Shown here in pieces: positions 20,796 through 36,586 of a stretch of DNA of 55,705 nucleotides. A program made the position numbers and the translations under genes. The number at the start of each line of letters is the position of its first letter. Within the stretch, counting starts at the first letter, position 1. The stretch comes from Comamonadaceae bacterium (lineage in GTDB: Bacteria; Pseudomonadota; Gammaproteobacteria; Burkholderiales; Burkholderiaceae_C), in assembly GCA_947485165.1 (NCBI GenBank), contig CANKRG010000007.1, positions 1 through 55,705 of the forward strand, written 5' to 3'. Below the pieces are notes generated by a model. It did not search any database and was not told the origin of the DNA. It saw only the letters and a program-made list of their open reading frames with translations.

Positions 20796-21629
20796 TTATT
20801 CAACTTTAGCCGTCTGCCAAACCACCCGCTCAGGCGCTGAAAAGCACAGAAAGCGTTTGTTCGTGGCGCGGCCAATGGCGCATAGGCTTAGTTTTTGCGC
20901 TAAGGCCAAGCCCATTTCCGTCATGCCGCTGCGAGAGACGACGACGGGGATACCCATTTGGGCGGATTTCATGACCATTTCGCTGGTTAAACGACCTGTG
21001 GTGTAGAACACTTTGTTGCCGCCCTGCACGCTGGCGGGGTCTTGCAGCCACATCCAGCCGGCGATGGTGTCAATGGCGTTGTGGCGGCCGACGTCTTCGA
21101 CGAACATCATTAGTTCGGCAGTTTCAGGGCTCTCTGGCAGCGCGGAAAACAGCGCACAGCCATGCACAGAGCCGGCTTGCTTGTAGACGCTGTCTTGCAG
21201 ACGTATGGCGTTGGTGATGGTTTCCAGCTGGGCTTGGGTGACTGTGGAATCGGGCAGGGTGACACTGTCAAACGCGCCCAACAAGTCGCCAAACACACTG
21301 CCTTGGCCACAGCCGGTGGTGACGACGCGTTTTTCAGTGCGTTTTTCAATATCGGTGATACCGTGGCGGGTTTTGACGGCGGCAGCGCCGACCTCCCAAT
21401 CGACGGTGATGGATTCAATCTCAGCAATCGAATCAACCAAGCGCTGGTTGCGTAAATAGCCCAACACCAGCCATTCAGGCTGCGCGCCCAAGGTCATCAG
21501 CGTGACAAGCTCGCGCTTGTCAACGTAAACCGTCAGTGCGCGTTCTGCAGGTATAAAAAGGGTGCGATTCTGTCCGTGTTCGTCAACTGCTATCACCTCA
21601 CGCACCAAGGGTGCGTGGGACTGGGTCAA
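20796..21629 (-). CDS. fdhD: Formate dehydrogenase accessory sulfurtransferase FdhD
   Basis: VTTGCGQGSVFG, HGCALF, MFVEDVGRHNAIDTIAGW, VFYTTGRLTSEMVMKSAQMGIPVVVSRSGMT. Confidence 0.95.
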   Translation of the reverse strand: MTQSHAPLVREVIAVDEHGQNRTLFIPAERALTVYVDKRELVTLMTLGAQPEWLVLGYLRNQRLVDSIAEIESITVDWEVGAAAVKTRHGITDIEKRTEKRVVTTGCGQGSVFGDLLGAFDSVTLPDSTVTQAQLETITNAIRLQDSVYKQAGSVHGCALFSALPESPETAELMMFVEDVGRHNAIDTIAGWMWLQDPASVQGGNKVFYTTGRLTSEMVMKSAQMGIPVVVSRSGMTEMGLALAQKLSLCAIGRATNKRFLCFSAPERVVWQTAKVE

Positions 21630-22064: not shown

Positions 22065-23270
22065 TCAAACTTGTACAGATTTTGTAGCGAGCACTGCATC
22101 AGCAGCAACAGCTGTGCGATCACGCGGAATTTTGCCAGCGTTCACGTCATCCAACCACAACTCATGGTGGTGTTTCGCCCAGTTGTCATCCACGTAGCCT
22201 GTTTTCATGCCTTGGTATGTGCCTTCGGTGCCGATGGTGCCTAGGTAAATGTGACCTATGAATACAACCATCATCAAAACAGTAGCGACAGCGTGAACCA
22301 TATGTGAAATTTGCATCATACTGCGGTCGTAACTAAGACCGGGAATGAGTTTATCCATCACCAGCCCAGAAGCGATGACAATGATTCCCAAGAGAAACGC
22401 ACCACCCCAGAACATCACTTTTTCTCCGGCGTTAAAGCGAGCAGCTTTGATATGCTCTTTAGAGAACAAACCACCACCCTTGAGCAACCAATTCAAATCG
22501 CCTTTGGCTGGCATGTTGTCACGTACGAAGGTGAAGATAACAATGATGAGTGATACGGCAAAAACAGGACCTGCAAAGTTGTGTGCATTTTTTAAGATGT
22601 AAGCGAGGTAGCCAAACAAAGCTTTACCTATGATTGGCATTAAAAAATATTGACCAAAGGCCATGACCAAACCCGAAATTGCCAAAATACTGAACGCAAT
22701 GGCGTTGGCCCAATGCGCTGAGCGCTCAAAAGGTGTGAATCGCTCAATTTTGCGTCCCGTTGGTGCGTCATCCAATTTGACAGCACCTAGACGCCAATAG
22801 TACAAACCCAATCCGCCCAATACAATCAAAAGCAAAGCGCCGCCGTAGGGAATAATCAAGCCATTGCGCACTTGTCGCCACGCTTCTCCCGCATTGGTCA
22901 AGCGAGAGCCTGGGTATTGCGTGAAGGGTTGAATCAAAATGCCCGCTTCTGGTGCGGTGTCTTTAGGGTAGCTAGTGAAACCCTCAACGCCGGCACCGAC
23001 TTGACGCCACATAGGTGCATTGTTGCCAGGCTGAACCTTGCCGCGTTCTGCATTGCTTTGTTTGGCGTACCCTGGTTCAAGACTGGCTTCAGGCTTGATG
23101 TCCATGATGTTGGCACTTTGAATGCCACCTTGCGTTGCAGCTGGTGGTACCAAGTCAGGTGCAGTGGCAGCAGTAGCAGTCGCTGGCGAAGGTGCCTGAG
23201 CAAATGCCGTGCCGTGCATTGCCAAAGCAAGACCGACTGTTGTGAAAGTCGCAATGAATGACCGCAGCAT
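22065..23270 (-). CDS. Formate dehydrogenase gamma subunit (cytochrome b556 type) with N-terminal exported extension
   Basis: RKIERFTPFERSAHWANAIAFSILAISGLVMAFG, NAHNFAGPVFAVSLIIVIFTFVRDNMP, HIYLGTIGTEGTYQGMKTGYVDDNWAKHHHELW. Confidence 0.92.
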   Translation of the reverse strand: MLRSFIATFTTVGLALAMHGTAFAQAPSPATATAATAPDLVPPAATQGGIQSANIMDIKPEASLEPGYAKQSNAERGKVQPGNNAPMWRQVGAGVEGFTSYPKDTAPEAGILIQPFTQYPGSRLTNAGEAWRQVRNGLIIPYGGALLLIVLGGLGLYYWRLGAVKLDDAPTGRKIERFTPFERSAHWANAIAFSILAISGLVMAFGQYFLMPIIGKALFGYLAYILKNAHNFAGPVFAVSLIIVIFTFVRDNMPAKGDLNWLLKGGGLFSKEHIKAARFNAGEKVMFWGGAFLLGIIVIASGLVMDKLIPGLSYDRSMMQISHMVHAVATVLMMVVFIGHIYLGTIGTEGTYQGMKTGYVDDNWAKHHHELWLDDVNAGKIPRDRTAVAADAVLATKSVQV

Positions 23271-23282
23271 AGTTGAGTCCTT

Positions 23283-23510
23283 TTAGTTGACTTTGGAATA
23301 CTCGTTTTGAGTATTTTGCATACGGGCTTTTAGTTGCTGCTCCCAACCCGCTTTATCGCCAGCTTTCCAGCCAGGAGCGGTAAAAGATGCCACACCGGTG
23401 CCAGCGTAAGGTGCTGTGTCATTTTTTGGTGTCCCAGAGGTTTGTTGTTTGTCGCCACAGGCAACCAAAGCTGCCGCTGCAATAACCATGAATGCTGTCT
23501 TTTTCATCAT
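23283..23510 (-). CDS. Small predicted lipoprotein between FDH beta and gamma genes
   Basis: MMKKTAFMVIAAAALVACGDKQQ (lipobox LVAC); start overlaps the fdhB stop by 4 nt, suggesting coupling. Confidence 0.75.
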   Translation of the reverse strand: MMKKTAFMVIAAAALVACGDKQQTSGTPKNDTAPYAGTGVASFTAPGWKAGDKAGWEQQLKARMQNTQNEYSKVN

Positions 23511-24127
23511 TTTGCTCCTACTGCAGGTGCTTGACCAGCTTGCTTAGAGCCATAAGCCGTACCCCAACCCCAAACTTCTGCGCCTTTGCCGCGCTTGAGC
23601 ACACGGTTGCGGAAAATGTCTGCAATCACGTCGCCATCACCCGCCAAGAGCGCTTTGGTAGAGCATTGCTCAGCACAAGCAGGCAGTTTGCCTTCAGCCA
23701 AGCGGTTGCGACCATATTTCTCGAATTCGGCTTGGCTGCCGTTGGCTTCCGGGCCGCCTGCACAGAAGGTGCATTTGTCCATTTTGCCGCGTACGCCAAA
23801 GGTGCCTTGTGATGGAAACTGTGGTGCACCAAACGGGCAAGCGTAGGAGCAGTAGCCGCAGCCGATGCACACGTCTTTGTCATGCAAGACCACACCTTCG
23901 TCGGTGCGATAAAAGCAATTGACGGGGCAGACCGCCATACATGGTGCGTCGCTGCAATGCATACATGCCACAGAGATCGATTTTTCACCAGGAACGCCAT
24001 CGTTCAAGGTGACCACGCGGCGGCGATTCACACCCCAAGGGACTTCGTTTTCGTTTTTGCAAGCCGTTACACAGCCATTGCATTCGATGCAGCGCTCTGC
24101 ATCACAGACAAATTTCATGCGTGCCAT
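23507..24127 (-). CDS. Formate dehydrogenase iron-sulfur (beta) subunit
   Basis: MARMKFVCDAERCIECNGCVTACKNENEVPWGVNRRRVV; further CSDAPCMAVCP and CIGCGYCSYACPFGAPQ motifs. Confidence 0.95.
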   Translation of the reverse strand: MARMKFVCDAERCIECNGCVTACKNENEVPWGVNRRRVVTLNDGVPGEKSISVACMHCSDAPCMAVCPVNCFYRTDEGVVLHDKDVCIGCGYCSYACPFGAPQFPSQGTFGVRGKMDKCTFCAGGPEANGSQAEFEKYGRNRLAEGKLPACAEQCSTKALLAGDGDVIADIFRNRVLKRGKGAEVWGWGTAYGSKQAGQAPAVGAK

Positions 24128-24138
24128 GGTTTGACTCC

Positions 24139-27102
24139 TTATGCTTTCTCGACGTTACAGATCGTCGTTTTGGTTTCTTGCATCATGGTCACGCTGTCAT
24201 AACCATATGTTGTCGCTGTGTTGACAGCCTCGCCGCGAATCACGGGCGCTGCACCATTCGGGTAGTAGACCAGCATGTCAGCACCTTGCCAGCGTCCTGA
24301 GAAGTGGAACGGCAAGAAGACGGTATCTGGACCCACACGCTCTGTCACCAAAGCTTGCACATTCAAGCGTGCGCCGGTAGGTGACGATACCCAAGCGCGG
24401 CCACCATTGGTGATGCCTTTTTCAGCCGCTATTTTCGGGTTAATCTCGATAAACATCTCTTGCTGCAATTCGGCCAACCAAGGGTTAGAACGCGTCTCTT
24501 CACCGCCGCCTTCGTACTCCGTCAAACGACCAGACGTCATGATGAACGGGAACTTCTCATGCAATTTGTCCGCAATGTTCTTTTGTTGGATCGTTTTGTA
24601 CAAAGTGGGCATGCGCCAAAAGGCTTTCTTGTCGTCATGCGTTGGGTACTTGGCCACCAAATCAGGACGGGTGCCATACAGAGGCTCACGGTGCTGTGGA
24701 ACTGGATCTGGGAAGTTCCACACCACGGCACGCGCTTTGGCATTGCCAAACGGATGGCAACCATGCACTTGCATGACGACACGTTGAATGCCGCCCGTCA
24801 AGTCTGTCTTCCAATTTTTGCCTTCGGCACCCGCTTTTTCTGTATCGGTCAAATCATCCCACCAGCCGAGTTTTTTCAACAGCACGTGGTCAAATTCTGG
24901 GTAACCCGTCGTGATATCTGCGCCCAATGAATGTGAGCCATCTTCCGACAACAAGCTCTTACCTTCACGCTCCACACCAAAGTTAGCGCGGAAGTTACCA
25001 CCACCGTCCATCACGTGTTTGGAGGTGTCATACAAGTTAGGCGAGCCTGGGTGCTTCATCGACGCATTGCCGTAGCAAGGCCATGGCAAACCGAAGTAAT
25101 CACCTGTAAAGTCGTAACCCGTTTCTTTGTCTTTCGCACTGCCTTTGGCTTTGAGCGTTTTGACATCAAACACATGCATATTGCGCATGTGGGCTTTCAA
25201 GCGCTCAGGGCTTTGGCCGGTGTAGCCGATGGTCCAAACGCCTTTGTTGATTTCGCGCAAAATATCTTCAGGCACCGGTTCATCCATGCCGCCTACTTTT
25301 TGCATTTTGTAGTTGACAGACAGTTCTTTGCCAAAACCTAGCTTGTTAGCAAACTGCTGCATGATCATGTGATCGCTGCGGCTTTCCCACAATGGCTCTA
25401 TGACTTTTTCACGCCATTGGAGTGAACGATTTGATGCCGTCACAGAACCACTGGTTTCAAACTGCGTCGCAGCGGGTAGCAAATACACCGCACGGCTCGC
25501 GTTCAAATCTTCTGCCTTGCCCGGCATGGCTGCCATCGCTGCGGTGGCTGACGGATAGGGATCGACCACGACGAGCAAATCTAGTTTGTCCATCGCACGT
25601 TTCATTTCCAAACCACGCGTTTGCGAGTTGGGCGCATGGCCCCACATGAAGACACCACGCAAGTTGGAATCTTGGTCGATCAGCTCGTTTTTCTCAAGCA
25701 CGCCGTCAATCCAGCGTGACACGGTTATACCTGGCTTGCTCATCATCGCTGCTGTTGCAAACTGTTTTTTGATCCACTCAAAATCAACACCCCAGACTTT
25801 CGCGAAGTGTTTCCAAGCGCCTTCGACGATGCCGTAGTAGCCTGGCAATGAGTCAGGGTTAGGACCCACATCAGTCGCGCCTTGCACATTGTCATGGCCA
25901 CGGAAAATGTTGGTTCCGCCGCCTGATTTGCCAACGTTACCTAATGCTAACTGCAAAATACAGGTTGCTCGAACCACTGCGTTACCCGTTGTGTGCTGGG
26001 TTTGCCCCATACACCAGACCACTGTGCTTGGGCGGTTCTCGCTCAGCATAGTCGCCACTTTCAAAACTTGCGCTTCTTTCACACCACAAGCTTCTTCAAC
26101 TTTGTCTGGTGTCCATTTAGCCAAGACTTCAGCTTTGACAGTCTCCATGCCGTACACACGGTCGTTGATGTATTTGGTGTCCTCCCAATTGTTCTTGAAG
26201 ATGTGGTAGAGCACGCCAAATACAAACGGAATGTCTGAGCCTGAGCGAATACGCACAAACTCGTCCGACTTGGCCGCCGTACGCGTGTAGCGCGGGTCAA
26301 CCACAATCATTTTGGTGCCAGTTTCTTTGGCATGCAACATGTGCAACATGCTGACTGGGTGCGCTTCGGCAGCATTCGAGCCAATGTACATCGCGCACTT
26401 GCTGTTTTGCATGTCGTTGTACGAATTGGTCATCGCGCCATAACCCCAGGTGTTGGCGACACCAGCAACCGTTGTTGAATGGCAAATACGCGCTTGGTGG
26501 TCACAGTTGTTGCTGCCCCAAAAGCTGACGAATTTACGTAACAAATAAGCTTGCTCGTTGTTGTGCTTGGAAGAACCAACAAAATAAACGCTGTCTGGGC
26601 CGCTGGCCTTTTTCAGCTCCATCATTTTGGCGCTGATTTCAGTCAGTGCGGTGTCCCAGCTGATGCGCTCATACTTGCCGTTGACCAATTTCATGGGATA
26701 ACGCAAGCGGAACTCACCGTGACCATGCTCACGCAAAGCTGCACCTTTGGCACAGTAAGAGCCTAAATTGATAGGCGAATCAAACACAGGCTCTTGGCGA
26801 ACCCAGACACCATTTTCAACAATGGCATCTACCGCGCAGCCGACTGAGCAATGTGAGCAAACCGTACGTTTGATTTCAATTTTTCCTGCGCCTAATATTG
26901 AAGCGCCTTCTGCAGCCTGCGCTTTTTTCACGAGCGTCAACTGAGTCGCTGCAATACCTACACCAACGCCTAAACCGGAGCGGCGCAAAAACGCGCGGCG
27001 GTCCATGGTGGGCAGGGCTTGTGAAATGCCTCTGCGTAGGCTATGCACGAAGGGTGAGCGAGCTGCGTTCTCAGCAGTGCTTGTTTTTTTAGTTAATAAC
27101 AT
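24139..27102 (-). CDS. Formate dehydrogenase catalytic alpha subunit, TAT-exported, Cys-type
   Basis: TAT motif DRRAFLRRSGLGVGVG; CSHCSVGC cluster; active-site segment NNCDHQARICHSTTVAGVANTWGYGAMTN (Cys rather than selenocysteine). Confidence 0.95.
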   Translation of the reverse strand: MLLTKKTSTAENAARSPFVHSLRRGISQALPTMDRRAFLRRSGLGVGVGIAATQLTLVKKAQAAEGASILGAGKIEIKRTVCSHCSVGCAVDAIVENGVWVRQEPVFDSPINLGSYCAKGAALREHGHGEFRLRYPMKLVNGKYERISWDTALTEISAKMMELKKASGPDSVYFVGSSKHNNEQAYLLRKFVSFWGSNNCDHQARICHSTTVAGVANTWGYGAMTNSYNDMQNSKCAMYIGSNAAEAHPVSMLHMLHAKETGTKMIVVDPRYTRTAAKSDEFVRIRSGSDIPFVFGVLYHIFKNNWEDTKYINDRVYGMETVKAEVLAKWTPDKVEEACGVKEAQVLKVATMLSENRPSTVVWCMGQTQHTTGNAVVRATCILQLALGNVGKSGGGTNIFRGHDNVQGATDVGPNPDSLPGYYGIVEGAWKHFAKVWGVDFEWIKKQFATAAMMSKPGITVSRWIDGVLEKNELIDQDSNLRGVFMWGHAPNSQTRGLEMKRAMDKLDLLVVVDPYPSATAAMAAMPGKAEDLNASRAVYLLPAATQFETSGSVTASNRSLQWREKVIEPLWESRSDHMIMQQFANKLGFGKELSVNYKMQKVGGMDEPVPEDILREINKGVWTIGYTGQSPERLKAHMRNMHVFDVKTLKAKGSAKDKETGYDFTGDYFGLPWPCYGNASMKHPGSPNLYDTSKHVMDGGGNFRANFGVEREGKSLLSEDGSHSLGADITTGYPEFDHVLLKKLGWWDDLTDTEKAGAEGKNWKTDLTGGIQRVVMQVHGCHPFGNAKARAVVWNFPDPVPQHREPLYGTRPDLVAKYPTHDDKKAFWRMPTLYKTIQQKNIADKLHEKFPFIMTSGRLTEYEGGGEETRSNPWLAELQQEMFIEINPKIAAEKGITNGGRAWVSSPTGARLNVQALVTERVGPDTVFLPFHFSGRWQGADMLVYYPNGAAPVIRGEAVNTATTYGYDSVTMMQETKTTICNVEKA

Positions 27103-27181
27103 GAAACTCTCCAATAAACTTGGGGTTGTTTGGGAATGTTTGGGACTCTAGGTTTGTTCAAGTGCAGAACAAGACGCGGCA

Positions 27182-27385
27182 TTAAACCAGGGTCGTTTTG
27201 TAATACTGTTTGACGTGTTCACTGAGCACATAGCCGCCACCCGTAGCAGGCGCCGGCTTGAGCACTTCCGCAATGGCAGCAGGTGCTGGTGACTTGATCA
27301 AGGTGGCTGATGCAACAGCTGCACCCGCTACGCTAGCAGTGATGAAAAAACCTCGGCGTGAGGCTTTGTTTGTAATTTCTTGCAT
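27182..27385 (-). CDS. FDH-region twin-arginine-like small protein (TIGR02811-type)
   Basis: MQEITNKASRRGFFITASVAGAAVASATLIKSPAP...GGGYVLSEHVKQYYKTTLV. Confidence 0.8.
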   Translation of the reverse strand: MQEITNKASRRGFFITASVAGAAVASATLIKSPAPAAIAEVLKPAPATGGGYVLSEHVKQYYKTTLV

Positions 27386-27535: not shown

Positions 27536-28177
27536 TTACACGAGCATGTCAAAGCCTTGCGCTTCTACGCCCATAAATGCGCGGATGAGTTCGGCTAGTG
27601 AGGCGTAGAATTTTGCTTTATTATTATTTTGAATATCATCACACATCAAGCTAACCCATGGTTGTATGTGCGTTGAGAAAAACTCGCGCTGGCGTGTCAA
27701 GTTGGCGACAGCAACATCCTCGCCTGCGATCAAATACCGCATCACTTCGCACAAATAGGCGAAATGGTCTTCAGTATCAGACATCACCTCTGAGCGTTCC
27801 AAACCCAGGCTCTGGAGCTCGGTGCGCAGTCTGGCCAGTGGTTTTTCGTTTAAAAAACCGCTCAAATAATGCGAACCATACAAATAGACTTCAGGCTTGC
27901 CGACGCCACCAAACAGTGCGTCGTATTCGTCTTTGATGGCTTGGTCCGACATGGAGCGGGTCACGCCGACGAAGTTGCGCCAAGGTTCTTCTAAAAAAGC
28001 ACCAGCTGCTGGTGTGTCGGTCGCAGCAACGCGTATTTGTGCTATTAATTCAATAGCAGGTGAGGCGTATAATACACTGGCTAGAAGGCCGTACAGCTCT
28101 GATCTTGCGGTTTCTTCATCAAGTGTGTTGGTAAGCTGTGCAGCGAGTAGGGAATCATTGCTTGTTGCCATGTTCAA
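27536..28177 (-). CDS. TorD/DmsD-family molecular chaperone
   Basis: ARSELYGLLASVLYASPAIELI...EYDALFGGVGKPEVYLYGSHYLSGFLNEKPLARLRTEL; downstream HIQPW. Confidence 0.88.
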   Translation of the reverse strand: MNMATSNDSLLAAQLTNTLDEETARSELYGLLASVLYASPAIELIAQIRVAATDTPAAGAFLEEPWRNFVGVTRSMSDQAIKDEYDALFGGVGKPEVYLYGSHYLSGFLNEKPLARLRTELQSLGLERSEVMSDTEDHFAYLCEVMRYLIAGEDVAVANLTRQREFFSTHIQPWVSLMCDDIQNNNKAKFYASLAELIRAFMGVEAQGFDMLV

Positions 28178-30309
28178 ATGTCCGTGATCTTAGATTCATT
28201 GGTGGTCGAATACATGTCGATGACACGGCAATCGCTGCACATTTTGAGGCGTTCAGCGGCAGCGCCCTGAAACATGCTGTGCCCTGACAACTTACCGACC
28301 ATGGCTTCAATCGCTTTGAGTGTGCCAAAGGGTTTGCTGCATCGAATGCATGAATACGGTTTCATCTCGTTGATCACCACAGGGTCTTTGCGTGATGGCG
28401 CTAAATTCAGCTGCGGAATCAAGGTGATGGCGTTTTCAGGGCATGTTTTTGCACACAGGCCACATTGAACGCAGTTTTTCTCAACCAGTTTTAGTTGCGG
28501 CGAGTCCACATTGTCTTGCAGCGCGCTGGCTGGGCAAGCGTTCACGCAGCTTAGGCACATGGTGCAAGCATCTTTGTTGATGACGATGGCTCCGAGAGGA
28601 GAGCCTTTGGCTGGCATCGCTATCACCGCTGGTTTTGTAAAATTAGCAGGTGCAAATTCGATCAAATGGTCTAGCGCCAGTTCCATGGTGGCGCGTTTGT
28701 CGGCTTGAATAGCGAAGCCGGCATTACGACTCACGACTTGGGCGATCGGAGCTTGCAAGGCTGTATCAACAGCTGCTATATCTTGAATATCCTTGGCTTC
28801 TATAAGCCGGAAATGCTCTCCTGTATAGCCCAGTCCCGTCAAAATAGACTGCGCCACAGCCATTTGTTCAGTCAAAGCAGCGCGGTATTGCGGCGCCTCT
28901 TCATCGGTCAGCAGGACCCAAACTTGCGATGCGCCGTAGGCAACCGCGGTCAGCCACACATCCAAACCAACGGATGATGTGTGCCACAAGCTCACAGGCA
29001 AAACACGCGCAGGCACGCCTTGCGTCGTTTTGTTGATTTGTGCCGAGCGACCCAATGCATTCAGCAACTTTGAACCCGCTTCTTGGCTGTGCAGCAAAAC
29101 AGCTGCATTTTTACCACCGCTGCGGGCATAGGTGCTCAGCATGGTCTTGAGTTTGACGCCTTGCTCGCTCGCCCGTGGGTACGCAAACGTCAGCGCGCCG
29201 CTAGGACATACCGTGGTGCATGAACCGCAGCCGACGCATAAATTGGGATTGACTTTGATCTGTTGGCGGTCTTTTTCGCTGCTGATGGCTTTGGCCGAGC
29301 ACACATCGATACAGGCATTGCAGCCGACTTTTTCATTGCGGCTGTGGGCACAGAGCTTTTGCTTGTAGTTGAAAAACTTAGGCTTCTCAAACTCGCCGAC
29401 CAAACCTCGCAAACTCATCAATGGTTTTGGATCAACACCATCCCAACGGAAATAGCCTTGCGGTAGCGCGTGTTGTGTGAAGCCGTTGTCACTGTTAATA
29501 CTGGCAACGTCACGCAGATCCAAAATAAGATCAAACTTATCGCTCGAGCTTTCTGCGTCACGGTTGAAGTCAATCGCGCCAGCCACCTGACAGGCTTTGA
29601 CGCAGCTGCGGTGTGATGTGCAAAGCGACATATCGACTTGGTAGTCCAAACCAATCGCGTCTTCCGGGCAGGCGGTGACGCAAGCGTTGCAGCGGGTGCA
29701 AACGTCTAAATCGATGGGGTTATTTCGCAACCACTTGAGCTCAAAAGCGCCAAGCCAGCCAGAAAGAGATTCAATTTTCCCGCCTAAAACGGGGTATTGG
29801 CGCTCTTGCATCGCTAACAAATTCATGGCCAATAAGTTGCTAGCGTTTTTCGTTCCTTGGGTGAAAATGCTGATGTCCAGCTCATCGCCCAGCAAGCCAG
29901 CAGCACGTTCGGCAGTAGCCAGATCACCAATAATCAACACGCGCCCAGCGCTTTTGTAGGTCACGGTTGAAACTGGCTCAGGCTCAGCCAAATGTGCAAC
30001 GGCTAAAAGCGCTGCAATTTTCGGGCTGGCTTTGCTGGCGTCTTTGCTCCAGCCGCCCATTTCACGAATGTTGACAAAGCGAATCGGCGAACTTGCACCC
30101 ACCGTTTGCTCGGCTAGCTCGGTGAACAAGCGCTTTTCTTGGGTGCAAGCGACGACAACGTCTTCGCCAGATTGAATGGCTTGCTGGAAACTACCAGCCT
30201 CGCGGCGGCACAGGGTGGTGTGGAGGGTTAAATTTTCATTCAGCGCCGCGCCCAAGCTTGTGGGGTCCAGCGGCATGGTTTTGCTGCAATCGCAAATCAG
30301 AGTGGTCAT
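28174..30309 (-). CDS. FDH-associated polyferredoxin (4Fe-4S protein, 711 aa) with degenerate HdrA-like N-terminal region
   Basis: Multiple ferredoxin motifs: CTRCNACVTACP, CNACIDVC, CVGCGSCTTVCP, CTMCLSCVNACP, CVQCGLCAKTCP, plus C-terminal CIRC...CSDC; N-terminus ICDC...LC...VVVACTQE...FVNIREMGGW. Confidence 0.88.
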   Translation of the reverse strand: MTTLICDCSKTMPLDPTSLGAALNENLTLHTTLCRREAGSFQQAIQSGEDVVVACTQEKRLFTELAEQTVGASSPIRFVNIREMGGWSKDASKASPKIAALLAVAHLAEPEPVSTVTYKSAGRVLIIGDLATAERAAGLLGDELDISIFTQGTKNASNLLAMNLLAMQERQYPVLGGKIESLSGWLGAFELKWLRNNPIDLDVCTRCNACVTACPEDAIGLDYQVDMSLCTSHRSCVKACQVAGAIDFNRDAESSSDKFDLILDLRDVASINSDNGFTQHALPQGYFRWDGVDPKPLMSLRGLVGEFEKPKFFNYKQKLCAHSRNEKVGCNACIDVCSAKAISSEKDRQQIKVNPNLCVGCGSCTTVCPSGALTFAYPRASEQGVKLKTMLSTYARSGGKNAAVLLHSQEAGSKLLNALGRSAQINKTTQGVPARVLPVSLWHTSSVGLDVWLTAVAYGASQVWVLLTDEEAPQYRAALTEQMAVAQSILTGLGYTGEHFRLIEAKDIQDIAAVDTALQAPIAQVVSRNAGFAIQADKRATMELALDHLIEFAPANFTKPAVIAMPAKGSPLGAIVINKDACTMCLSCVNACPASALQDNVDSPQLKLVEKNCVQCGLCAKTCPENAITLIPQLNLAPSRKDPVVINEMKPYSCIRCSKPFGTLKAIEAMVGKLSGHSMFQGAAAERLKMCSDCRVIDMYSTTNESKITDI

Positions 30310-30940
30310 CGTTAGGTCCGGAAATAGGTGTCGATATGGGTGTCGTTTGTGGAGGTAAATTTTCTATCCTCGACTGTGCCACAGATTGCATGCTTACGGT
30401 ATGAGCATCATCCCCAATGGGAGCCTCTATTAATGTTGCTGTTTGCGCCGTTTTTGCGTCTAAAGCAGCTTTTTCAGCGGCAGCTTCGGCCTCTTCTTCA
30501 GCTTTGAACAAATTCAAAAACTTGGCGCTGACCATTTGCCGCAGCATAGATTCAGGAATTGGGTCTGGCTTGGAATAATCATCAATGTAGATGTCCAGCC
30601 TGTCCATCACGTTGTAATGTGGGTCGGTAAACAGCTTTTTCATCGCTGTATTACGCACTTCAGGCGACACGTTTTTGGCAAGGAAGGGTGAAAAATCGGA
30701 CTCTGCTGTCAATTCATGAACATCTGCCATCGTCGGCAGTGGGACTTCGGGTTTTTCCGCAACAGCAGTTTTTTCTGAAGTTTGGGCAGAAGGTAGGTTT
30801 GAAGCTTTGTCGGCTAGTGCAACGGGCTTGGTCGTAATTTCAGGCTCTGCCAAGGGCTTTCCTGCACGAATATCTTGCTTACGTTGTGACCAACGACCCA
30901 AAAACCCCTCTTGAGAACCTTCATTATTGCTATCCGCCAT
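30236..30940 (-). CDS. DUF3306-domain protein (FDH-associated)
   Basis: FLGRWSQRKQDIRAGKP...LTAESDFSPFLAKNVSPEVRNTAMKKLFTDPHYNVMDRLDIYIDDYSKPDPIPESMLRQM. Confidence 0.8.
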   Translation of the reverse strand: MADSNNEGSQEGFLGRWSQRKQDIRAGKPLAEPEITTKPVALADKASNLPSAQTSEKTAVAEKPEVPLPTMADVHELTAESDFSPFLAKNVSPEVRNTAMKKLFTDPHYNVMDRLDIYIDDYSKPDPIPESMLRQMVSAKFLNLFKAEEEAEAAAEKAALDAKTAQTATLIEAPIGDDAHTVSMQSVAQSRIENLPPQTTPISTPISGPNDDHSDLRLQQNHAAGPHKLGRGAE

Positions 30941-31538
30941 GGTTGTTACCTCCAGGAAAGCCGCCACCTCTATTCTTTTCGGTTGAGATTGAGGCAGGAT
31001 TGCCAAACCTGTCCTCTAAACGTTTGAAACTATCAGGTCGTTTACGCTTTTTGAGTTCACTGACGTGGTGTTGGTCCACAAAGGCTTTTAGCCAAACGAC
31101 AACTTCAGGCGGCAGCGGCACTTGTTCCACAGTTTCTTGTGCATCCAGCCAGCGGCCAGCGTCATGGTAGCTCAGGCTCACCATTTCGGGTTTGGCGATA
31201 GGCTCATCGGTGATGCCTGCTTCTTCTTCCATGCGCCACAGCACAAACCAGCAGGGCGCATTTGTCGTCACATTCAGGTAATACCCTTCGGCATCATCTG
31301 TGAATAATTCTGCGCAGTAGCCGCTATGCAGCCATCGCTCAGTGTTTTCATTCTTTGATAATAATTGCGATTTTTTATCACTGAAACCGGCCTGCGAGCT
31401 ATCCTCTTGAGCAACTTCTTCGTTCAAAACGACTTGCTCCAATACCCAGCGATGCGACTGCCAGCGGCTCATCGCACCGACGATAGGCTCGCGGCGCATG
31501 ATGACTGAAACGCTTAAAGCGGGGCGTGGGGAAGACAT
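30930..31538 (-). CDS. DUF3305-domain protein (FDH-associated)
   Basis: VSVIMRREPIVGAMSRWQSHRWVLEQVV...GYCAELFTDDAEGYYLNVTTNAPCWFVLWRMEEEAG. Confidence 0.8.
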   Translation of the reverse strand: MSSPRPALSVSVIMRREPIVGAMSRWQSHRWVLEQVVLNEEVAQEDSSQAGFSDKKSQLLSKNENTERWLHSGYCAELFTDDAEGYYLNVTTNAPCWFVLWRMEEEAGITDEPIAKPEMVSLSYHDAGRWLDAQETVEQVPLPPEVVVWLKAFVDQHHVSELKKRKRPDSFKRLEDRFGNPASISTEKNRGGGFPGGNNHGG

Positions 31539-31617: not shown

Positions 31618-34542
31618 TCAATACCCCGTCTTAAGTGCTGCTTTGCCACCTTTGGTAACAGAAACAGCGCAATACTTGAACTCAGGAATTTTTCCCACAG
31701 GATCAAGTGCTGCATTCGTCATCATGTTCGCCGCCGCTTCGTAGTAGGCGAAGGGGATAAATACGGCCCCGCGCGGTGTACCATCATCACGACGGATGTG
31801 AATCGCCACTTCGCCCCGACGTGATTTGACAGTGATGACATCGCCCGCGTTCAAGCCCATGGCTGTCATGTCTGCCCCGCACAGCGACGCAGTCGCCATA
31901 GGTTCTAAAGCGTCCAGCACCGAAGCGCGGCGCGTCATGCTGCCGGTATGCCAATGTTCCAATTGGCGGCCGGTGATCAACACAAAGGGATATTGCGCAT
32001 CAGGCCGTTCATCCGCTGGAATGATATCTGCAGGCACAAGCTGCACACGCCCATCGGCGGTTGGGAAAGTGTCGATAAACACGGTGGGTTGGCCAGGGTC
32101 TTCAGCGCTTAGGCAAGGGTAGGTCACGCTAGATTCGCGCTCCAAACGTTCCCATGTGATGCCAGCAATGGCCGCATGCATCGCTTGACGCATTTCTTCA
32201 TACACTTCTGCCACGCCTGAATGCTCACCCTGGTAAAAGGCCCCCACGTTTGTCGCTTCGCGTACTGCACTGCCCCCCGAGGGGGCTACGCCTGCTTGGG
32301 GCGGCCCGGCGCTGGCGTTGTCCCAGTTCACCCCCATGCGGAAAGCGATTTCCTGGATGATCCACAAATCGGGCTTGGCATCGCCCGGTGGGGTGATGGC
32401 TTGTTTGCCCATTTGCACCATGCGGTCGGTGTTGCTCACCGTGCCTGTTTTTTCCGGCCAAGCGGTTGCGGGCAGCACCACATCGGCCAGCCAAGCGGTT
32501 TCGGTCATGAAAATGTCTTGCACCACCAAATGGTCTAACGATGCCAAAGCATGGCGGGCATGGTTCAAATCAGGGTCACTCATCGCGGGGTTTTCACCCA
32601 TGATGTACATGCCACGCACCTTGTGTGGGTCACTGTCAGGCGCAAGTGCCTTGTGCATGATTTCCACCACCGTGTAGCCCGGTTGGTCGTCCAGCTTGGT
32701 CTGCCAAAAATCTTCAAACCACGCATGCACGCCCTTGTCGGTGACGCGCTGGTAATTGGGGAACATCATCGGAATCAATCCAGCATCGCTGGCACCTTGC
32801 ACATTGTTTTGCCCACGCAGCGGGTGCAAGCCAGAGCCGGGTTTGCCAATCTGTCCCGTCACCGTGACCAAAGCAATCAAACAGCGCGCATTGTCGGTGC
32901 CGTGGATGTGCTGGCTGATGCCCATGCCCCATAAAATCATCGCACCTTTGGCTTTGGCAAACTCGCGCGCTACTTCGCGCAGCGTTTCGGCCGGCACGCC
33001 GCAAATCGGGGCCATGGCCTCGGGGCTGTAACCTTTGACATTCTCACGCAGCGCTTCAAAGTTGCTGGCGCGGGTGCGGATGAATTCTTCGTCCGTTAAG
33101 CCTTCTTCAATCACGGTATGGATCAAGGCGTTCAGCATCGCCACGTCTGTGTCGGGCTTGAATTGCATCGTGCGCCAAGCATGGGTGCTGATGTCAGTAC
33201 GGCGCGGATCGGCTAAAACGATTTTGGTGCCGTTTTTAGCGGCGTTTTTCATCCACGTAGCCGCCACAGGATGGTTGGAAGTAGGGTTGGAGCCGATCAC
33301 CAAAATCAGCCCGGCGTGTTCGACATCACTGACCTGGTTGCTCACCGCACCAGAGCCCACACCTTCTAAAAGTGCCGCCACGCTAGAGGCATGGCACAGC
33401 CGCGTGCAGTGGTCCACATTGTTGCTGCCAAAGCCGGTACGCACCAGTTTCTGGAACAAATACGCCTCTTCGTTGCTGCCTTTGGCCGAGCCAAAACCAG
33501 CCAGCGATTTCTTGCCATAGGTGTCGCGCAAACCCACCAGCTTGCCCGATGTGTAGGCCAAAGCCTCTTCCCATGTGGCTTCGCGGAAGACTTCGCGCCA
33601 GTCTGCGGGATTGCGGGTGATCAGTTCGTCTTTTGCTATACCTTCTTTACGAATCAAAGGCACAGTCAAACGCTGGTCATGGTGTGCGTAGTCAAAGCCA
33701 AAGCGGCCTTTGACGCACAGCCGGTTGTGGTTCGCCGGGCCATCGCGGCCATCCACACTCACGATTTTGTTGTCTTTGACGTTGTAGGTCAGCAAGCAAC
33801 CGACGCCGCAGAACGGGCAGACCGAATCAACTTTTTTATCAACAATTTGTGAGCCTACTTGGGTTTTTGGCATCAGCGCGCCCGTCGGGCAGGCTTGCAC
33901 GCATTCGCCGCAAGCCACACAGGTGCTTTCGCCCATTTTCTCGCCAATATCAAAAACAATCTCGCTGTGCGAGCCGCGCATCGCGTAGCCAATCACGTCA
34001 TTCACCTGCTCTTCACGGCAGGCGCGCACGCAGCGGTTGCACTGGATGCAGGCATCCAAGTTCACCGCCATGGCGGGGTGGGAGTAGTCTGATTTCGGTT
34101 GCTCGCGGCGCAAGGCTTTCAGCTCTGGACGCACCGACACATCCATGCGTGCTGCCCAGTCGCTCAGTTCACCGTGTTGTTGCGATTCATCTTTTTCATT
34201 CCATTTGTAGCCCGTGTCCGGCATGTCGCTGAGCAACATTTCCAGTACCATTTTCTGGCTTTTTACCGCACGTTCGCTGGTCGATTTGACCTCCATACCC
34301 GCTGTCACATTGCGGCAGCAGCTCGGTGCAAGGGTGCGTTCGCCGTTGATTTCAACCACACAGGCGCGGCAGTTGCCATCGGCTCTGTAACCTTCTTTGT
34401 AGCAAAGATGGGGAATATCAATGTCGTGGCGTTTGGCCGCATCAATGATGGTTTCGCCTTCAAAGGCTTGCATCGCTACGCCGTCGAGTTTGAAGTCAAG
34501 CAAGGCTGGCATCAACTCTGTTAATTTGGTAGGCGCGTTCAT
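31618..34542 (-). CDS. NAD-dependent formate dehydrogenase alpha subunit (FdsA-like, Cys-type)
   Basis: N-terminal [2Fe-2S]/NuoG-like domain, CIQCNRCVRACREEQVNDVIGYA, CPFCGVGCLLTYNV, NNVDHCTRLCHASSVAALLEGVGSGAVSN. Confidence 0.94.
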   Translation of the reverse strand: MNAPTKLTELMPALLDFKLDGVAMQAFEGETIIDAAKRHDIDIPHLCYKEGYRADGNCRACVVEINGERTLAPSCCRNVTAGMEVKSTSERAVKSQKMVLEMLLSDMPDTGYKWNEKDESQQHGELSDWAARMDVSVRPELKALRREQPKSDYSHPAMAVNLDACIQCNRCVRACREEQVNDVIGYAMRGSHSEIVFDIGEKMGESTCVACGECVQACPTGALMPKTQVGSQIVDKKVDSVCPFCGVGCLLTYNVKDNKIVSVDGRDGPANHNRLCVKGRFGFDYAHHDQRLTVPLIRKEGIAKDELITRNPADWREVFREATWEEALAYTSGKLVGLRDTYGKKSLAGFGSAKGSNEEAYLFQKLVRTGFGSNNVDHCTRLCHASSVAALLEGVGSGAVSNQVSDVEHAGLILVIGSNPTSNHPVAATWMKNAAKNGTKIVLADPRRTDISTHAWRTMQFKPDTDVAMLNALIHTVIEEGLTDEEFIRTRASNFEALRENVKGYSPEAMAPICGVPAETLREVAREFAKAKGAMILWGMGISQHIHGTDNARCLIALVTVTGQIGKPGSGLHPLRGQNNVQGASDAGLIPMMFPNYQRVTDKGVHAWFEDFWQTKLDDQPGYTVVEIMHKALAPDSDPHKVRGMYIMGENPAMSDPDLNHARHALASLDHLVVQDIFMTETAWLADVVLPATAWPEKTGTVSNTDRMVQMGKQAITPPGDAKPDLWIIQEIAFRMGVNWDNASAGPPQAGVAPSGGSAVREATNVGAFYQGEHSGVAEVYEEMRQAMHAAIAGITWERLERESSVTYPCLSAEDPGQPTVFIDTFPTADGRVQLVPADIIPADERPDAQYPFVLITGRQLEHWHTGSMTRRASVLDALEPMATASLCGADMTAMGLNAGDVITVKSRRGEVAIHIRRDDGTPRGAVFIPFAYYEAAANMMTNAALDPVGKIPEFKYCAVSVTKGGKAALKTGY
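32239..32310 (-). repeat. GC-rich palindromic repeat inserted in frame in the FDH alpha gene
   Basis: Minus strand gccgggccgccccaagcaggcgtagccccctcggggggcagtgcagtacgcgaagcgacaaacgtgggggcc, encoding low-complexity AGPPQAGVAPSGGSAVREATNVGA. Confidence 0.75.
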
Positions 34543-36443
34543 TGTGCTGCTCCTGCTTGAGTTTGGCTGATTTCATGGGGGAAGTATTTTTGAACGCAGC
34601 GCACCGGGTTGGGTGCCGCTTGGCCGAGGCCGCAAATCGAGGCATCGGTCATCACCACGTTCAAGTCTTCTAAGGTGTCGTTGTCCCACACCTTGGCCTC
34701 CATCAAACGTGCCGCTTTCACGGTGCCGACGCGGCAGGGCGTGCATTGGCCGCAGCTTTCGTGCGCAAAGAAACGCATCATGTTCAAGGCGGCGTCACGT
34801 GCGCTGTCATGTTGACTCAGCACAATCACCGCGGCAGAGCCGATGAAACCACCCAGCGGCTGCAGTGTGTCAAAGTCCAAAGGCACATTGGCATGGCTGG
34901 CGGGGAAAATGCCACCTGATGCACCACCAGGCAGGTAGGCGTAAAGTTCATGGCCATCCAACATGCCCCCGCAATACTCGTCAACCAACTCCAGCAGGGT
35001 GATGCCCGCAGGCGCCAATTTCACGCCCGGGTGCTTGACGCGGCCGCTCACGCTGAAGCTGCGCAAACCTTTGCGGCCATTGCGGCCAAAACTGCTGAAC
35101 CATTGCGGCCCCAGCTGCACAATGTCGCGCACCCAGTACAGGGTTTCAAAATTGTGCTCCAGCGTCGGGCGGCCAAACAAACCGACTTGGGCGATGTAGG
35201 GCGGACGCATGCGCGGTTCGCCGCGTTTGCCTTCAATACTCTCAATCATGGCGGATTCTTCACCGCAGATGTATGCACCCGCACCTCGGCGCAGCTCGAT
35301 CAGGGGCAACTTGCCCACCAAAGCCGCTGGTGGGTTGGCTTGTAATTTAGCCAATTCAGCCGTCAGCAAGCGTCGGCAATCGTGGTATTCATCCCGCAGG
35401 TAGATGTAGCAGGCGTCGATGCCCACCACCATGGCGGCGACCAGCAAGCCTTCTAAAAACCGATGCGGGTCGCGCTCTAAATAGGTGCGGTCTTTGAAGG
35501 TACCCGGCTCGCCTTCGTCAATGTTGACCGCCATCAGCTTGGGGGCGGGCTGGTCGCGCACAATGCGCCATTTGCGTCCTGCAGGAAAGCCTGCGCCGCC
35601 CAAGCCACGCAGGCCAGAGTCTTCCATCGCTTTGAGGATGGGCTCTACGTCCAAGCTGCCGTTCGCCATATCGTTGGCAAGCTTGCTTGGCAGCGCGTAA
35701 CCGCCATGCGCCAGATAGGTGGCAAAATCGGTGTAGGCTGGCGGAAGCCGTGCATCGGCATGTTCGGGGTGCGGTGAAATGCTTTTTTCAGTCAATTCAC
35801 TTGTTATAAAATTAATAGCACCTTTAGCAATAAAAACGCCGGCTACATCGTTATTTGCTTCATTTTTAACGCTCTCCAGCGTGGCGTATGGCACGTTGCG
35901 TTGATGCACAGCCACCACAGGCGCTTGTTCGCAGCGGCCTAGGCAGGGCGCAGGAATCACCCGCATGCCTGGGTTGCCCAAAATAGCCGGCAAGCGTTTG
36001 AGTAAATCTTGCGCCCCTGCGAGCTCGCAAGACAAGCCGTCGCAAACGCGGATGGTCAGTGCGGGGGCCGTGCCATCCACGATCACATCGCCATCCCCTG
36101 TATCTTGTTTGATGCCTTTGACGACTTCAAAGTGGTGATAAAACGTGGCCACCTCGTACACCTCGGCCATGGGTATGTTCATTTCCTTGGCCAAGGCGAC
36201 CAGATGTCGCTCATGCAGGCAGCGGTAGGTGTCGTTCAGCAAATGCAGGTTTTCAATCAACAAATCGCGTCGGTAGCCCTCTGCTGGTCGCGCCCCAAGC
36301 AGCGCCACCACCTCAGCGCGGGAAATATCATCGGCCTGTCGGCCTTTGAGTTTGCTTTTCTGGCGAATACGTTCGCGCAGCTGGTCTGGGGTGGCTAGAA
36401 CGACGGAATTGACTGAGTTCATAACTGGAAGTGCGGCTGTCAT
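34539..36443 (-). CDS. Fused NuoE/NuoF-like subunit of NAD-dependent formate dehydrogenase (FdsG-FdsB fusion)
   Basis: NuoE-like DLLIENLHLLNDTYRCLHERHLVALAKEMNIPMAEVYEVATFYHHF and CDGLSCELAG; NuoF-like GLRGLGGAGFPAGRKW, NIDEGEPGTFKDRTYLERDPHRFLEG, CGQCTPCRVGT. Start uncertain (36443 or 36422). Confidence 0.92.
   Translation of the reverse strand: MTAALPVMNSVNSVVLATPDQLRERIRQKSKLKGRQADDISRAEVVALLGARPAEGYRRDLLIENLHLLNDTYRCLHERHLVALAKEMNIPMAEVYEVATFYHHFEVVKGIKQDTGDGDVIVDGTAPALTIRVCDGLSCELAGAQDLLKRLPAILGNPGMRVIPAPCLGRCEQAPVVAVHQRNVPYATLESVKNEANNDVAGVFIAKGAINFITSELTEKSISPHPEHADARLPPAYTDFATYLAHGGYALPSKLANDMANGSLDVEPILKAMEDSGLRGLGGAGFPAGRKWRIVRDQPAPKLMAVNIDEGEPGTFKDRTYLERDPHRFLEGLLVAAMVVGIDACYIYLRDEYHDCRRLLTAELAKLQANPPAALVGKLPLIELRRGAGAYICGEESAMIESIEGKRGEPRMRPPYIAQVGLFGRPTLEHNFETLYWVRDIVQLGPQWFSSFGRNGRKGLRSFSVSGRVKHPGVKLAPAGITLLELVDEYCGGMLDGHELYAYLPGGASGGIFPASHANVPLDFDTLQPLGGFIGSAAVIVLSQHDSARDAALNMMRFFAHESCGQCTPCRVGTVKAARLMEAKVWDNDTLEDLNVVMTDASICGLGQAAPNPVRCVQKYFPHEISQTQAGAAQ
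35801..35858 (-). repeat. Dispersed palindromic repeat, copy E, in frame inside the NuoE-NuoF linker
   Basis: Minus strand gcaaataacgatgtagccggcgtttttattgctaaaggtgctattaattttataacaa; core tagccggcgtttttattgctaaaggtgctatta differs from copy A at 3 of 33 positions. Confidence 0.85.
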
Positions 36444-36586
36444 ACAATTTGTAATACGATATTTGGTTGCTAATTCGCCTGAGTGTGGGCGCAATGGCCG
36501 TACCGGTCAAATTGAATCGAAACATGCATTCATTCAAAAAATAAATGATGCACTGCAGCATTTGAAATGCTGAGCTGATTGAATCC

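Follow-up and report, generated by a model that had tools for sequence, protein, structure and literature searches.

HdrA of methanogens (PDB 5odc, 8rvu and 7bkb) carries, in this order, an N-terminal iron-sulfur (FeS) domain, a Rossmann half domain, an inserted ferredoxin and a C-terminal ferredoxin, and its Cys197, located in the flavin adenine dinucleotide (FAD) domain, completes the N-domain cluster of the partner HdrA (PMC9012536). In QmoB and similar HdrA-MvhD fusions, an HdrA-type N-domain, a ferredoxin and then an MvhD domain are joined in one chain of ~700 residues. HycF of the E. coli formate hydrogenlyase has a dicluster ferredoxin followed by a tail of the form CxxC-x34-CPxC, whose single metal faces the formate dehydrogenase FdhF and was proposed to regulate FdhF binding (PMC9474812). 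Genes called 'fer4' or 'hypothetical ferredoxin' were reported from fdh loci together with DUF3306, DUF3305 and torD (Bay et al. 2015, PMC4464133); in the passages covered, the fer4 product is labelled merely as a 4Fe-4S domain protein, with no mention of HdrA or MvhD origin. Here, we describe a 711-residue protein, hereafter polyferredoxin, encoded beside the genes of an FDH3-type formate dehydrogenase (FDH) in a window of 55,705 nucleotides (the whole stretch of DNA analysed, contig CANKRG010000007.1 of a Comamonadaceae bacterium). Profile and structure comparisons point to a relative of HdrA-MvhD proteins that has lost the flavin site.

The fer4 gene of PMC4464133 almost certainly belongs to the polyferredoxin family and has the same neighbourhood. 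In public records, the family goes by the name '4Fe-4S binding protein', with named members from Sinorhizobium and Bradyrhizobium. Judged by gene order, its Shewanella counterpart is SO_4506, which is co-regulated with fdhT, fdhA and fdhB (PMC5826389; PMC2535785). Mutants of the membrane FDH of Cupriavidus necator showed no fitness effect on formate (PMC11540253), the operon in question not being established as FDH3 type. Concerning mutants of the polyferredoxin gene, DUF3305, DUF3306 or SO_4506, the literature contained gene-order and expression mentions only, and no paper naming an HdrA-MvhD origin or testing polyferredoxin function was found, most subscription journals lying outside the coverage. 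The gene family itself is already known.

The open reading frame (ORF) delimited at 28174-30309 by an earlier note on this DNA proved exact in its coordinates. It is located on the minus strand, starts with ATG and is intact, while the plus strand of the interval is rich in stop codons. Every motif quoted in that note was recovered from the translation, namely ICDC (C6, C8), LC (C34), DVVVACTQEKRLFTEL (C55), RFVNIREMGGW (77-87), RVLIIGDLATAERAAGLL (123-140) and SGWLGAFELKW...DVCTRCNACVTACP (183-215). A search of the host genome found the gene in a single copy. Its product is 89% identical to a protein from a Polaromonas metagenome-assembled genome, and the host is a Polaromonas relative.

The N-terminus was said to follow the HdrA layout, and this was borne out: the four N-domain cysteines and the NIRE..GW motif are kept, and both profile and fold searches select HdrA. 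A profile of residues 1-199, built from 41 diverse relatives and searched against 177,635 distinct PDB sequences, matched three HdrA chains (E 1.9e-6, 2.1e-6 and 7.1e-6) and nothing else significantly, the next E-value being no better than 0.33. The homology of this domain is visible by profile only, since a single-sequence phmmer search of residues 1-202 against PDB gave no match; Pfam searches with single N-terminal sequences yielded only scattered chance matches. In profile-profile comparison (hhalign) with seven HdrA sequences, a collinear alignment across the N-domain, the Rossmann half and GxxGxF was obtained (probability 95.1, E 3.5e-8, score 63.7), compared with at most 22.3 for those of the 40 column-shuffled controls that ran. 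The whole family aligned to HdrA with a probability of 99.3; the N-domain alone was weak, and residues 247-318 alone gave no match. The ferredoxin at 319-376 matched the C-terminal ferredoxin of HdrA even in single-sequence phmmer (E 7.7e-11). The curated NCBIfam cut-off for HdrA was missed widely (51-57 bits vs 1100-1400).

The predicted structure led to the same family. An AlphaFold2 model of the whole protein, built from 58 sequences (predicted local distance difference test, pLDDT, 86.7; predicted template modelling score, pTM, 0.84), retrieved HdrA at all of ranks 1-11 in a Foldseek search of PDB (best 1.0e-15, probability 1.00). Global TM-scores were low, at 0.16-0.27 when normalised by query length and 0.25-0.29 when normalised by target length, and the root-mean-square deviation was large, as expected for a protein that lacks much of the FAD domain and has its domains shifted. 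When residues 1-320 were modelled alone (pLDDT 81.4), all eleven matches below 1e-3 were HdrA (best 4.3e-14, TMq 0.31-0.42), the next one reaching 5.6e-3, so that the HdrA-like fold on which the earlier note had staked its claim for residues 1-230 is present in the model. It might be argued that the likeness merely reflects convergent short motifs in an ordinary polyferredoxin, given the empty phmmer search of residues 1-202 and the fact that HdrA matches of the whole single sequence fall on ferredoxin motifs. We consider this extremely improbable: profile search, shuffled-column control and the fold search with residues 1-320 all pick HdrA, and the domain order is collinear; the control together with the fold search rules convergence out as the explanation. 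Because 31 cysteines are conserved, HdrA is the only PDB family found by the profile and the real score stands far from the shuffled ones, the resemblance to HdrA is, by sequence and model, one of homology above chance.

The loss of the GxGxxG flavin motif, also claimed in the earlier note, turned out to extend well beyond the loop. Where HdrA has VIGGGxAGxxAA, polyferredoxin has LIIGDLATAERAA, and GxGxxG is absent; among 122 relatives, GxGxxG/A is kept in nine, always as GxGxxA, a form that we read as a relic. HdrA has ~240 FAD-domain residues between its inserted and C-terminal ferredoxins, compared with ~70 in polyferredoxin, and the shortfall of the FAD domain amounts to ~180 residues, between residues 190 and 320. 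A counterpart of Cys197 is missing as well, there being no cysteine between 55 and 204. Thus, polyferredoxin differs from HdrA by the absence of the FAD loop, most of the FAD domain, the Cys197 counterpart and HdrBC partners, and by the addition of MvhD-like, HycF-like and metal-tail parts. Judging from these residues, HdrA-type flavin chemistry would be very unlikely and flavin-based electron bifurcation unlikely; because the FAD site is gone, bifurcation could not proceed in the manner of HdrA.

An MvhD-like domain, overlooked in the earlier note, follows the second ferredoxin pair (residues ~400-510). Here, the model matched chains 7bkb_F, 5odc_D and 5odh_D by Foldseek (probability 1.00, TMt 0.64-0.68), the first two annotated as MvhD-type hydrogenase subunit D and 5odh listed under the 5odc_D sequence. 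FlpD (PF02662) was the only Pfam family that recurred in this region, being found in 12 of 48 relatives (best E 0.0076) below the gathering score (13.8 vs 22.3 bits). The profile of the region was not significant against PDB (MvhD 9sfi_K, E 0.64), and this part alone was weak in hhalign. The MvhD assignment is therefore based on fold, recurring sub-threshold FlpD matches and domain order. Although the predicted fold is shared with MvhD/FlpD, polyferredoxin has no cysteine here, and the [2Fe-2S] cluster of MvhD would therefore have been lost. The position of the domain behind the second ferredoxin pair corresponds to the order in HdrA-MvhD fusions such as QmoB, and against a combined HdrA and QmoB profile the whole family aligned collinearly all the way from the N-domain through the MvhD domain (probability 99.0). 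By sequence, polyferredoxin is related to QmoB and is not a member, as GGGxSG is missing: QmoB, a protein of sulfur metabolism, keeps this FAD motif and the MvhD-type cysteines and has no inserted ferredoxin. QmoA was rejected as a comparator, with profile probabilities of 27.7 or lower over short spurious stretches. Of the "HdrA/QmoA-type" label given earlier, only the HdrA part can thus be retained, with HdrA-MvhD/QmoB-like order in place of QmoA.

All 31 cysteines of polyferredoxin are kept in each of 42 Burkholderiales relatives, and the N-domain set (C6, C8, C34, C55) is invariant in the 65 relatives that possess an N-domain. The remainder are distributed over three dicluster ferredoxins with six half-motifs (C204-C240, C320-C368, C582-C623) and the tail C654IRC657...C691SDC694, leaving residues 55 to 204 and 368 to 582 free of cysteine. 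When fully loaded, the protein would hold seven [4Fe-4S] clusters and one metal. The earlier count of about six ferredoxin motifs plus CIRC..CSDC was correct except that one pair is imperfect: at the expected sixth-cysteine position of the inserted ferredoxin stands His233 (78 of 85 Burkholderiales sequences), which suggests a His-ligated or [3Fe-4S] cluster. Apart from this, in gammaproteobacterial members without the N-domain (L106, L121, L122, L127, L128), the equivalent of C361 is Val, Ala or Ile (LCxGxGSC), and a three-cysteine site would result.

For residues 577-701, HycF was the top NCBIfam family (E 9e-22, 77.7 bits vs the 204-bit cut-off), and HycF chain 7z0s_F matched residues 577-695. 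From its sequence, the C-terminal part is like HycF without being a HycF member. The tail has the same form as in HycF, with x33, and is invariant in all groups. Unlike HycF, this HycF-like part sits in a much larger soluble protein, with no hydrogenase partners.

Next, we consider the distribution of the family. In a panel of 399 Pseudomonadota genomes, it was present in 62, FDH3 beta in 61 and DUF3305 in 61, and the three sets were identical except for one additional genome (G219). There, a 511-aa relative lies beside a Tat-exported (twin-arginine translocation) molybdoenzyme (RRRFLQ), a 4Fe-4S subunit, an NrfD anchor and a TorD-like chaperone; a search with this protein revealed no further lineage of this kind among the panel genomes. 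Separately, the TorD-like chaperone of G219 (312 aa, L133:4846-5784) ends with CTRCDQPI...LCLDCRD, like the polyferredoxin tail CIRCSKPF...MCSDCRV, and a docking or metal module common to both is possible. All domains are present in Burkholderiales members. Most relatives from other classes (gamma and alpha labels are our reading of 'same class' and 'same phylum' categories) keep the N-domain and have no inserted ferredoxin, and a gammaproteobacterial clade of 554-577 aa has neither. As HdrA has a ferredoxin at the same point, its retention in Burkholderiales and loss elsewhere would be the simpler reading. Full HdrA genes also occur in Pseudomonadota (L141-L143, L170-L172; genomes G145, G053 and G030), with in-frame TGA codons within the HdrA match and a hydrogenase-like large subunit gene as neighbour; these are possibly selenoproteins or separate ORFs.

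The order DUF3305-DUF3306-polyferredoxin-TorD-FDH3 is kept in beta- and gammaproteobacterial loci. In Sinorhizobium meliloti, the polyferredoxin gene is oriented divergently to the cluster and has molybdopterin genes and an ABC transporter nearby; at L188:6580-8872 of this species, a biotin/lipoate protein ligase family gene and DUF6352/DUF6505 genes were noted between DUF3305 and polyferredoxin. In Variovorax, moeA comes after the FDH genes, as does a molybdopterin biosynthesis gene. In the window itself, the minus-strand cluster runs from a NuoEF-like diaphorase fusion and a cytosolic FDH alpha through DUF3305, DUF3306, polyferredoxin, a TorD/NarJ chaperone, a small Tat peptide, the Tat-signal FDH alpha, FDH3 beta and cytochrome b gamma to a small unknown ORF and FdhD (Table 1). 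The DUF3306 ORF extends 74 bp into the start of the polyferredoxin gene (30236-30309), an arrangement that suggests translational coupling. The first two genes constitute a second, cytosolic-type FDH (974-aa NuoG-like alpha and NuoE-NuoF fusion diaphorase, 31618-36494) on the same strand, directly upstream of the FDH3 cluster. Neither a signal peptide nor a transmembrane segment was found in polyferredoxin (maximum hydropathy 1.34 over 19 residues).

Table 1. Parts of the polyferredoxin gene and neighbouring genes, with positions in the window
Feature	Position	Strand	Evidence
Whole polyferredoxin gene, flavin-less HdrA-MvhD type, 711 aa, 4Fe-4S binding protein of FDH3 cluster	28174..30309	-	Intact ORF, single copy
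Residues 1-108, HdrA-type N-terminal FeS domain with C6, C8, C34, C55, NIRE..GW	29986..30309	-	PDB profile match, Cys conservation
Residues 109-196, relic HdrA FAD/Rossmann half domain (LIIGDLATAERAA, GWLGAF), GxGxxG lost	29722..29985	-	hhalign collinear with HdrA
Residues 197-246, inserted dicluster ferredoxin, Burkholderiales only, His233 for one Cys	29572..29721	-	Same insertion point as HdrA ferredoxin
Residues 247-318, shortened rest of FAD domain (FDLILDL...PQGYF)	29356..29571	-	Full-family hhalign to HdrA runs through region
Residues 319-376, dicluster ferredoxin, HdrA C-terminal ferredoxin equivalent	29182..29355	-	phmmer to HdrA chains E 7.7e-11
Residues 377-572, MvhD/FlpD-like domain, zero cysteines	28594..29181	-	Foldseek MvhD chains, sub-threshold FlpD
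Residues 573-640, HycF-like dicluster ferredoxin	28390..28593	-	NCBIfam HycF, 7z0s_F
Residues 641-711, metal-binding tail C654xxC657-x33-C691xxC694	28177..28389	-	Invariant in all groups; HycF tail analogy
DUF3305 protein	30930..31538	-	PF11749 E 1e-46
DUF3306 protein	30236..31006	-	PF11748 E 2.5e-36
TorD/NarJ-family chaperone, start overlaps polyferredoxin gene end	27536..28177	-	PF02613 E 1.2e-24
Small Tat-signal peptide gene, formate dehydrogenase region TAT target type	27182..27385	-	Sequence MQEITNKASRRGFF...
FDH3 catalytic alpha subunit, Cys-type, Tat signal RRAFLRR	24139..27114	-	
FDH3 beta subunit	23507..24127	-	NF038355 338 bits, above cut-off
FDH gamma (cytochrome b) subunit	22065..23270	-	TIGR01583 above cut-off
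FdhD sulfurtransferase	20796..21629	-	TIGR00129 E 3.6e-33

Tat substrates fold in the cytoplasm and are then exported. Because polyferredoxin is cytoplasmic and its partner Tat-exported, electron exchange with mature periplasmic FDH3 is hard to imagine, and contact with the precursor would be natural. From this, we infer a role before export, and the explanation that we favour, at about even odds, is that polyferredoxin is a cytoplasmic, flavin-less HdrA-MvhD descendant serving as electron-transfer and docking factor in FDH3 maturation. Of the two roles offered in the earlier note, hub or assembly factor, the latter fits better a cytoplasmic protein that tracks only the Tat-exported FDH3. Maturation is suggested by the strict tie to a Tat-exported molybdoenzyme and TorD, by the G219 case and by the cofactor-biosynthesis neighbours, and the mode of docking by the resemblance of the HycF-like tail to the site at the FdhF interface. 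According to this proposal, polyferredoxin would act before FDH3 export, joining the TorD chaperone on the FDH alpha precursor by means of its HycF-like tail. A cytoplasmic donor would reduce the protein, single electrons would run along the [4Fe-4S] chain, and the HycF-like end would hand them to the chaperone-held alpha subunit, where they might support FdhD sulfuration, cofactor insertion or reductive activation. The wider idea, that an HdrA-MvhD scaffold without flavin was recruited as a dedicated redox partner maturing Tat-exported molybdenum/tungsten (Mo/W) enzymes, with a HycF-type tail docking the FDH precursor, is put forward more tentatively, as somewhat short of an even chance. Several points weigh against the maturation role. 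Co-occurrence cannot tell assembly from electron transfer, and HycF-like ferredoxins carry electrons within a working complex and are no assembly factors. Some relatives do without the N-domain and the inserted ferredoxin, so that both are dispensable for the core role. Moreover, the literature covered, which excluded most subscription journals, held no mutant, interaction or biochemical data on polyferredoxin.

Other roles can be envisaged. Polyferredoxin might be a catalytic electron hub for a cytoplasmic FDH, for example the adjoining NAD-linked one, directing formate electrons to ferredoxin-type acceptors. The NuoG-like alpha and NuoEF-like fusion directly upstream would suit such a hub, and methanogen HdrA/MvhD do pair with formate dehydrogenases (PMC9012536). 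However, the cytosolic NAD-type FDH adjoins the gene only locally, being absent beside it in non-Burkholderiales loci; the diaphorase was present in 23 of 126 polyferredoxin loci, some of them short, vs FDH3 beta in 61 of 61 genomes, and in Variovorax the cytosolic FDH genes lie on the opposite strand, which leaves the hub rather unlikely. Seven cluster sites in a cytoplasmic protein strictly paired with an exported FeS enzyme could be expected of a donor or storage scaffold giving [4Fe-4S] clusters to FDH3 alpha and beta before export. We regard this as an improbable role too, as most of the ligand sets form complete cubane motifs of the kind typically seen in stable electron-transfer clusters, and HdrA-MvhD is unlike any known FeS scaffold or carrier. 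A soluble sensor or gate responding to redox state or oxygen, permitting FDH3 maturation or export under suitable redox conditions, would explain many clusters without a catalytic site and would accord with the redox-regulating function proposed for the single-metal HycF-type site in formate hydrogenlyase (PMC9474812); as polyferredoxin has no regulatory or DNA-binding domain, a sensor seems quite unlikely.

Roughly one sixth of the Pseudomonadota genomes sampled carry the polyferredoxin gene and, with a single exception, all of these also have the FDH3 system. Identification of the gene product as a flavin-less HdrA-MvhD relative provides a concrete structural hypothesis comprising cluster ligands, a docking tail and a lost FAD site, and the family illustrates clearly how a bifurcating scaffold has decayed to a simple electron wire, with intermediate domain combinations surviving in different lineages. 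For molybdoenzyme biogenesis, the question is raised why an exported formate dehydrogenase should need a dedicated cytoplasmic electron chain. If our proposal is true, a dedicated redox partner of Mo/W enzymes would represent a kind of molybdoenzyme maturation factor not previously described.

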